A stretch of DNA of 64,000 bases. It comes from Alteriqipengyuania abyssalis. GTDB taxonomy: Bacteria > Pseudomonadota > Alphaproteobacteria > Sphingomonadales > Sphingomonadaceae. Each line of letters opens with the position of its first letter. Positions within the stretch are counted from its first letter, which is position 1. A program made the position numbers and the translations under genes. Of the stretch, positions 32,057 to 38,081 are shown piece by piece. The stretch lies in the NCBI RefSeq assembly GCF_019857185.1, contig NZ_JAHWXP010000003.1, positions 463,501 through 527,500 of the forward strand. Reading direction: 5' to 3'. The notes under the pieces are model-generated. The model was not told the DNA's origin and did not search any database. It saw only the letters and a program-made list of their open reading frames with translations.

Positions 32057-36485
<4,429 letters not shown>

Positions 36486-36496
<11 letters not shown>

Positions 36497-38081
36497 AGTG
36501 CGCCTTCGCATCGTACAGCGTTTCGAGGTCGATCGCGGCACGGCCCTGTTCGGCGGCGAAGCTCTCGGTATTCCGCCGCGCCTTGCCGCGCACGAAGAAG
36601 GGTATCTTCTTCAGCTCGGCCTCGGCTTCGGCGGTCCAGAGCGTATCTTCATCGTCACCCCGGACTTGTTCCGGGGGCCAGTCCTCCTCCTGGATGGCTG
36701 GAGCCCTTGGCGCACTGGATGCTGAAACACGTTCAGCATGACGAGAAGGCGAATGAGCGGCCAGGTGCGAGGCCCCGGCATCGTCGGAGAACTCGAAATC
36801 CTCGCGGAACATTGTCAGCAGGTGCTCTTCCAGCCCCATGATCAGCGGGTGCACCCATGTGTCGAACAGCACGTTCGCGCCTTCGAAACCCATCTGCGGG
36901 CTGTGGCGCGCGGGGAAATCCTGCACGTGGACCGGGGCGGAGATGACCGCGCAGGGCACGCCCTGACGCTTGGCGATGTGGCGTTCCATCTGCGTGCCGA
37001 GCACCAGCTCGGGCGCGGCGGCGGCGATCGCGTCCTCAACCTCGAGATGATCGTCGGTGATCAGCGGCTCGACGCCATACAGCTTGGCGGCATCGCGCAC
37101 GTCGCGGGCAAATTCGCGGTTGTAGCAGCCAAGCCCGACGACCTCGAAGCCGAGTTCCTCGTGCGCGACCCGCGCAGCGGCAACCGCATGGGTGGCATCG
37201 CCGAACACGAACACGCGCTTGCCCGTCAGATAGGTCGAGTCGACCGAGCGGCTCCACCACGGCATGCGCGACTCGCCGTCTTGCAGAGCAGGCGTAGGAT
37301 CGACGCCCGCTAGCGCGGCAACCTCTGTGATGAACTCACGGGTTGCGCCGACGCCGATAGGGATGGTCTTGGTGCGGGGCTGTTTGAACTCGCGCTCCAG
37401 CCAGCGGGCGGCGCTGTCGCCGATTTCGGGATAGAGCACGATGTTGAAATCCGCCGCGCCGACCCGGGCTACGTCGGCGGGCCAACCGCCCAGCGGTGCA
37501 ACGCAGTTCACCTCGATGCCGAGCGTAGCGAGGATACCGCGCACTTCGCGCACATCGTCGCGGTGGCGGAAGCCGAGCGCTGCGGGGCCGAGAATATTGG
37601 CCAGCGGCCTGCGGCCTTCATGCGGCGCGGGGCGCACATCGCGATCCGCCAGATGGCGCACGATCTGGTAGAAGGTCTCGCCCGCGCCCCAGTTCTCCTT
37701 GCGCGAATAGCTTGGCAGTTCGAGCGGAACGACCGGGCACGGCAGGCGCATCGCCTCGGCCATTCCGGCAGGATCGTCCTGGATCAGCTCGGCGGTGCAT
37801 GACGAGCCCACCAGCATTACCTGCGGGTCGAACCGCGCATAGGCATCGCGCGCCGCGCGCTGGAAGAGGTCGGCGGTATCCTTGCCCAGATCACGCGCCT
37901 GGAAGGTGGTGTAGGTCACCGGCGGGCGGCAGCCACGCCGCTCGATCATCGTGAACAGCAGGTCCGCGTAGGTGTCGCCCTGCGGCGCGTGGAGCAGATA
38001 GTGGACTCCGCGCATGGCTGTCGCGACCCGCATCGCGCCGACATGAGGAGGCCCCTCGTAGGTCCAGACGCTCAGCTGCAC
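36486..38081 (-). CDS. bchB: dark-operative protochlorophyllide reductase subunit BchB
   Basis: Forms the catalytic NB complex with BchN, reducing ring D of protochlorophyllide. The start is GTG at 38081, giving the family N-terminus (V/M)[22 protein letters not shown]; it lies two bases after the bchN stop. Typical motifs follow: [68 protein letters not shown], and the C-terminal reductase-specific helix domain ([25 protein letters not shown]). Between these domains, about residues 446-477 are encoded by a palindromic repeat (36651-36745), an in-frame insertion that lengthens the linker. The protein is 531 aa. Confidence 0.97.
36651..36745 (-). repeat. palindromic repeat element inserted in frame within bchB
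   Basis: It contains two perfect palindromes, CCCCGGA-CTTGT-TCCGGGG (36658-36676) and ATGCTGAA-ACACG-TTCAGCAT (36719-36739), joined by a GC-rich segment. This is the pattern of a repeat common between genes in sphingomonads (recalled, not searched). Here it is translated as the linker segment [20 protein letters not shown] followed by [12 protein letters not shown]. The length keeps the frame, recalling Rickettsia palindromic elements. Confidence 0.75.

Follow-up and report, generated by a model that had tools for sequence, protein, structure and literature searches.

The linker between the two domains of BchB in the sphingomonad genome studied here holds a head-to-head dimer of CGTC-tagged REP units. 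The dimer lies in the bchB reading frame, is present in all BchB-bearing members of the genus, has further copies in the same genome and has counterparts of other repeat types at the same linker elsewhere in the family. Very probably it entered the linker before the BchB-bearing members of the genus diverged and was tolerated there as a flexible spacer, and other repeats have settled in the same manner. What seems new is that a single loop has taken up palindromic repeats of different families again and again, and that the occupants change between closely related species.

Identity and reading of the element in bchB

The window, i. e. the whole stretch of 64,000 nucleotides analysed, contains bchB on the minus strand (Table 1). 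In the 540-residue translation Pfam places Oxidored_nitro at residues 21-422 and PCP_red at residues 491-535, and the element lies between them, as the initial annotation had it. Both palindromes described there were recovered, each with a 5-nt loop and in frame within the bchB open reading frame on the minus strand. The extent given, 36651-36745, was right as to the site, and the unit is now drawn from CGTC to GACG, at 36653-36743. Its order is CGTC, stem, 5-nt loop, stem, 42 nt, stem, 5-nt loop, stem, GACG.

Table 1. Features of bchB and of the REP dimer in the window, and loci of the TruB loop
Feature	Position	Strand	Remarks
bchB coding sequence	36486..38081	-	GTG start chosen by alignment with relatives (presumed start)
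Oxidored_nitro domain (PF00148) of BchB	36843..38048	-	Pfam
PCP_red C-terminal domain (PF08369) of BchB	36504..36638	-	Pfam
Variable inter-domain linker of BchB, holds the element	36639..36788	-	
CGTC-tagged REP head-to-head dimer, whole element, CGTC...GACG	36653..36743	-	open in bchB frame; 91 nt
REP unit 1	36719..36743	-	8-bp stem 36719-36726/36732-36739, 5-nt loop
REP unit 2	36653..36676	+	CGTC tag 36653-36656, stem 36658-36664/36670-36676, 5-nt loop
Stretch between the two stems	36677..36718	-	42 nt, fastest-changing codons
TruB loop loci	L208, L219, L220, L209, L223, L213, L224, L211, L049, L232		

Unit 1 has the arms ATGCTGAA/TTCAGCAT, is read as R-H-A-E-R-V-S-A, and its CGTC tag at 36740-36743 appears as GACG on the plus strand. 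Unit 2 has the arms CCCCGGA/TCCGGGG and is read on the minus strand within P-P-E-Q-V-R-G-D-D. Its stem has 7 bp in the window and 8 bp at loci L032, L033 and L035; it includes G-U pairs in L034 and one mismatch in L037. CCA follows the unit 1 stem directly, and after the 7-bp stem of unit 2 there is one extra G, a changed last stem base, and then CCA. The two CGTC tags can also pair with each other.

CGTC REPs were defined by Di Nocera et al. 2013 (PMC3733652) by an unpaired CGTC tag (variants TGTC/CCTC), stems of 8-9 bp, loops of 4-5 nt and a CCA-like tail; according to the text of that survey they are mostly head-to-head dimers, occur mainly in alphaproteobacteria and are without a dedicated transposase. 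The bchB element is a CGTC-tagged REP head-to-head dimer: it has the tag at both ends, stems and loops of this size, the CCA tail, the head-to-head arrangement and many dispersed copies. It also shares the alphaproteobacterial host and the in-frame position of units described in the text of PMC3733652, by which its stem and loop sizes fit the CGTC-2 subfamily (8-bp stem, 5-nt loop). GTAG REPs with RAYT transposases are likewise dispersed hairpins that form dimers; here, however, the tag is CGTC, and the transposase domain Y1_Tnp (PF01797, RAYT-type) had no match in the own genome, while 5 of 14 control genomes were positive. Thus a RAYT-type enzyme is not at hand in this genome now.

The initial annotation had presented the element as a non-rickettsial case of an in-frame palindromic element. 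The host is indeed no rickettsia and the element does lie in BchB, but the kind is already published: the text of PMC3733652 reports CGTC and GTAG REPs wholly inside open reading frames of several species, and the hosts it gives for E. lithoralis and S. alaskensis include TruB (tRNA pseudouridine synthase B) and tRNA synthetases. For TruB the paper adds S. maltophilia and, with RPE-1, R. conorii; it further notes different REPs at about the same site in recB of two Xanthomonas species, and it counts RPE-4 and RPE-6 among the CGTC REPs. Neither the in-frame position outside Rickettsia nor the repeated use of TruB as a host is therefore new. With the Rickettsia palindromic elements the bchB element has the in-frame location in protein genes in common; it differs in its phototrophic Sphingomonadaceae host and in being a heterodimer of two hairpins. 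No bch gene figures in the main text of PMC3733652, where bch or chlorophyll do not occur as word beginnings, though its supplementary table of intragenic REPs may have a BchB entry. Our literature searches found no published title or abstract on a repeat in bchB. A succession of different repeat families at one loop across a genus, as seen here, was not found described in the text of PMC3733652 either.

In the bchB frame the element gives 31 residues, ending PPEQVRGDD, which are inferred to be translated as part of BchB. The window copy is open in three of six frames, and the bchB frame is the most hydrophilic of these (GRAVY -1.32). Since the frame is kept, open and hydrophilic, the insert may be tolerated as a flexible spacer; probably the element is read as a floppy spacer, with a peptide that would be harmless. 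Linkers range from 36 to 84 residues among 137 BchB linkers, and occupied ones are longer than others (median 63.5 vs 48 residues; 16 vs 41 linkers). In a predicted BchB model of mediocre quality (mean pLDDT 70.8, pTM 0.55), residues 381-478 have a pLDDT below 50; as this stretch takes in conserved residues too, disorder of the linker is only suggested.

Two minor observations concern the surroundings. A perfect inverted repeat, GCGCACTA/TAGTGCGC, lies at 36481-36503, by the stop codon of bchB; bchH likely starts here, with an overlap of 11 nt between the two genes. An antisense open reading frame (33221-36841, plus strand, 1206 aa) extends over bchH and the last part of bchB, where it renders the element as RHPGLVPG; it is probably spurious.

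Further copies in the genome

The view of the initial annotation that the element is a dispersed repeat was borne out by a search of the window's own genome (G000). At E <= 10 it gave the query and 31 further matches, 32 in all, of which two have an E value above 1. Besides the query three are nearly whole, with 71-78% identity, and the remainder mostly cover one hairpin. Whole head-to-head dimers with other stem combinations occur at L002, L003 and L008, none of them well inside an open reading frame of at least 100 aa. The unit 1 hairpin, with only two loop bases left free, recurs at five other places (L002, L003, L004, L006, L008), and loci L001-L030 hold 35 hairpins with 8 pairs (G-T allowed), of which at least one (L002, minus strand, 2129) is probably due to chance.

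Sixteen of the 30 matches fetched lie within at least one open reading frame of at least 100 aa with a 45-nt margin, many of these frames being spurious. A Pfam scan took in the frames at 11 of the 16 loci, bchB included (all except L012, L017, L020, L025 and L026). Besides BchB, the element is internal to two domain-bearing proteins, a sulfite or nitrite reductase (L013) and the beta subunit of glycyl-tRNA synthetase (L022), where it sits between two domains. Glycyl-tRNA synthetase of this genome also holds a repeat of another type (type G, see below), and so has two in-frame inserts of different types. At L016, L023 and L024 a Pfam domain is present and the element lies outside it towards an end, with the start codon unsure.

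Recurrence of repeats in the BchB linker and in other loops

A search of 298 family genomes gave BchB in 57 (E <= 1e-60). Together with two more congeners 59 genomes were used, seven from the genus and 52 others, and in 50 of the latter the linker is complete. The linkers L185 and L188 are cut by contig ends and stand outside these 50; L185, which resembles type B, was given that label in the tree and in the two repeat-count comparisons below. Repeats occupy the linker in 9 of the 50, and they are of several types (types A, B, C, D, F and G are labels of this analysis, type F being only a candidate dispersed repeat). The repeat of the G210 linker is type A, a CGTC dimer that shares its reading frame with the window element. 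Type B (CCCCTCCC.../...GGGAGGGG) is found in G110, G236, G010, G251 and G173, a B-like repeat that matches type B in G046, and type C (CCTCCCCGG...) in G164 and G115. Between types A, B, C, D, F and G there is no match at E <= 0.01, and members within a type match each other.

For eight of the nine (G210, G110, G236, G115, G010, G164, G173, G046) the own genome holds further copies of the type. The ninth, G251 (L148), matches only itself in its own genome and is a decayed relative of the G010 linker (L147), alike in sequence and position. The other 41 linkers are negative, namely 40 controls and L168 (G177), which looked repeat-like and yet matched only itself. Among the controls 39 gave only the self-match (E <= 0.001) and L176 one weak partial match (E 1.3e-5); as 14-19 candidates per genome were scored here against 40 in the candidate-linker search, the control is somewhat less sensitive and weak copies could be missed. 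A codon-shuffle test for single hairpins (p<=0.02) flagged 7 of 57 family linkers, the window's own not among them, and 1 of 80 in another set; it is too weak to sort linkers, and the own-genome copy test was used instead.

Among 137 linkers, tagged hairpins with 8 pairs (G-T allowed) are confined to G210 and six of the seven congeners. Loose CGTC-like hairpins with 7 of 8 pairs in L090, L105, L124 and L126 look like chance and were not counted. Three further genomes, from the separate 80-locus set, have linker repeats. That of Sphingomonas hylomeconis (L072) is of type B, a Sphingomonadales MAG has half an element (L088), and the palindrome of Erythrobacter sp. AP23 (L059) is a different one, type D, with one further copy.

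Genomes with an occupied linker are richer in repeats, with a median of 50.5 vs 16 matches (p 0.004; 10 vs 42 genomes), the counts being lower bounds for types A-C. Under a uniform distribution 0.07 hits in a 150-nt target would be expected over the 52 genomes, compared with 10 occupied linkers (L185 counted). This estimate is rough: copy numbers are minimum values, BchB linkers were the source from which all three types were defined, and sisters may share one gain.

The linker was left out of a tree of 85 BchB cores (quick IQ-TREE run with SH-aLRT as the sole support measure). On it, presence and absence require 12 changes, at least six of them forced by starred branches; such counts cannot separate gain from loss. 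Shuffled labels need 18.2 changes on average, and none of 500 shuffles needs as few as the real one; such clustering is expected if sisters share inserts. G210 is placed, with weak support, away from the window's genus, and the row closest to it is without the element; its dimer was apparently gained independently. Over the columns used for the tree, G115, with type C, and G175, with no repeat, share 98% identity, and their linkers differ throughout. In genus g2 the linker holds type B (G010, G251, and G285 by inspection of a cut linker), type C (G164) or none (G103, G213).

The BchB peptide also matched other loci in the genus, some of which Pfam identified as TruB (G004, G005, G008) and cysteinyl-tRNA synthetase (CysRS; G008). 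The latter identity comes from the class I (C) tRNA synthetase domain in G008, with which the G005 locus aligns. truB and cysS were taken from 15 genomes, the ten of the genus and G276, G049, G110, G128 and G264. The TruB loop is occupied in 10 of the 15 and in 9 of the ten congeners, by four mutually dissimilar types within the genus: the CGTC dimer in G004, G005 and G008 and a single CGTC hairpin in G002, type C in G003 and G006, type F in G000 and G001, and type G in G007; G009 has none. Outside the genus, G276, from another genus, has type F, and G049, G110, G128 and G264 have no repeat there. Copies of type G also occur outside TruB; for type F none was found outside TruB in the sequences examined. 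Over 150+150 nt the truB flanks of G000 are 96.0% and 95.3% identical to those of G002 and G008, with loops of 23% and 30% identity; this comparison took in seven of the nine occupied congeners, G004 and G005 falling outside its motif. The truB flanks of G000 (L208) and G001 (L219) are 99.7% identical, and their BchB proteins differ by about 7%; recombination of truB between these two species is probable.

The CysRS loop, extracted from 12 of the 15 genomes (all but G003, G049 and G264), holds the dimer in G000, G005 and G008 and lacks it in the other nine. The TruB and CysRS dimers of the congeners are read in the same frame as in BchB, and in the CysRS copy of G008 the frame used is open and not the most hydrophilic. 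The cysS dimer of G000 (L233), also in the BchB frame, exceeds that of G008 by 21 nt, an addition within the first hairpin. The native loop residues of CysRS and BchB look replaced rather than just interrupted.

Most likely these repeats are neutral passengers in tolerated loops. A head-to-head CGTC dimer would have entered, through some copying or mobilisation step, the stretch of bchB that encodes the loose linker between core and C-terminal domain before the BchB-bearing congeners diverged, and would have been tolerated as a flexible spacer. The same filter could have admitted other palindromic repeats repeatedly at this linker in other Sphingomonadaceae, and may act at a few other loops, in TruB, CysRS, GlyS and sulfite/nitrite reductase.

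Another possible, though less probable, interpretation is that a few loops such as the BchB linker and the TruB loop are true hotspots, at which hairpin repeats are exchanged via hairpin cleavage and repair, targeting or recombination. Rather doubtful is the specific claim that the two are preferred sites at which unrelated palindromic repeats take each other's place in frame within the lifetime of a genus, because the resident hairpin is a target or provokes the exchange, tolerance alone not being sufficient. The occupation of the TruB loop by dissimilar types in nearly all congeners, the unlike loops of G000 and of G002 and G008 behind nearly identical flanks, type F at the same place in another genus, the replaced native residues in CysRS and BchB and the mixed linkers of genus g2 would all fit such exchange. 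However, a tolerance filter together with many repeats and interspecies recombination, to which the truB flanks of G000 and G001 point, can give the same picture, and no target motif or duplication was established.

With either course, the BchB linker is a useful place for studying how hairpin elements enter proteins. Loops that hold different repeats behind 95-96% identical flanks and are empty elsewhere amount to natural insertion experiments, and they bear on how CGTC REPs move, for which the text of the 2013 survey gives no dedicated transposase (PMC3733652). They also point to a route by which repeated, perhaps selfish DNA could supply linker peptides in a bacteriochlorophyll enzyme and in translation enzymes. 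For annotators they are a warning that such linkers are repeats and not domains.

Age of the element and possible selection on it

Seven of the ten genomes of the genus, the window's own included, encode a full BchB, and all seven have the element at the same place. The bchB element is thus not recent; to judge from this distribution, it entered before the BchB-bearing members of the genus diverged. The initial annotation had raised the possibility that close relatives lack the peptide: it is absent from the more distant BchBs fetched, but not from the congeners. The motif RHAE.VSASS...W.P.QV.GD is recognisable in six of the seven. In G007 the element is decayed, with a 21-nt expansion, and the peptide is barely recognisable; no perfect stem of at least 7 bp is left, although the second unit still has 7 of 8 pairs with G-T allowed.

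For a useless passenger the stems are well kept, which argues against that reading: in six congeners 98.3% of the stem cells are paired, and G006 has double changes at two of the 20 pairs, though 31 of 500 shuffles equal this pairing and these double changes. The hairpins could be kept as an RNA element of the bchB-bchH message, serving its stability or the coupling of bchB to bchH (the two genes probably overlap). For the 100-nt region the calculated folding energy is -42.3 kcal/mol; shuffles average -33.9 +/- 4.0 (z -2.1), and 6 of 200 reach the value of the region. An Rfam scan of the window gave one tRNA as the sole match. We consider such a role improbable, for the element is absent from most BchBs of the family and G007 has lost its perfect stems. 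With 31 of 500 shuffles doing as well, the covariation is not significant, and the arms are not exceptionally conserved at third positions, 15% of windows reaching the same level. In-situ compensation in G006 was considered and set aside: its variant stem also occurs at other places in the genus, though within G006 only in bchB, so that in-situ change and conversion are indistinguishable.

Very unlikely, too, is a domestication of the peptide with selection for a linker function. Its retention in all seven BchB-bearing congeners, with the motif recognisable in most, would agree with this, but the linker changes faster than the rest of the gene (identity at codon positions 1/2/3 of 0.80/0.80/0.66 for 36677-36718 vs 0.96/0.96/0.76 for the rest, six congeners), the G007 peptide has largely faded and other lineages have other peptides. 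Chance palindromes in a GC-rich, fast-evolving native linker can be rejected: the codon-shuffle test flags few linkers and single 7-bp stems do arise in control linkers, but the further genome copies, the CGTC tags at both ends and the shuffle expectations contradict this reading, each hairpin pattern having a single place in the window (<=3 mismatches) and on average 0.01 (first) and 0.00 (second) matches in dinucleotide shuffles of the window.

BchB of G003 (L037 1972-2023; G003:C1:1259954-1260005) has a second in-frame insert in another loop, half a type C element. It is read in the same frame as type C in G115, and the other six congeners are without it.
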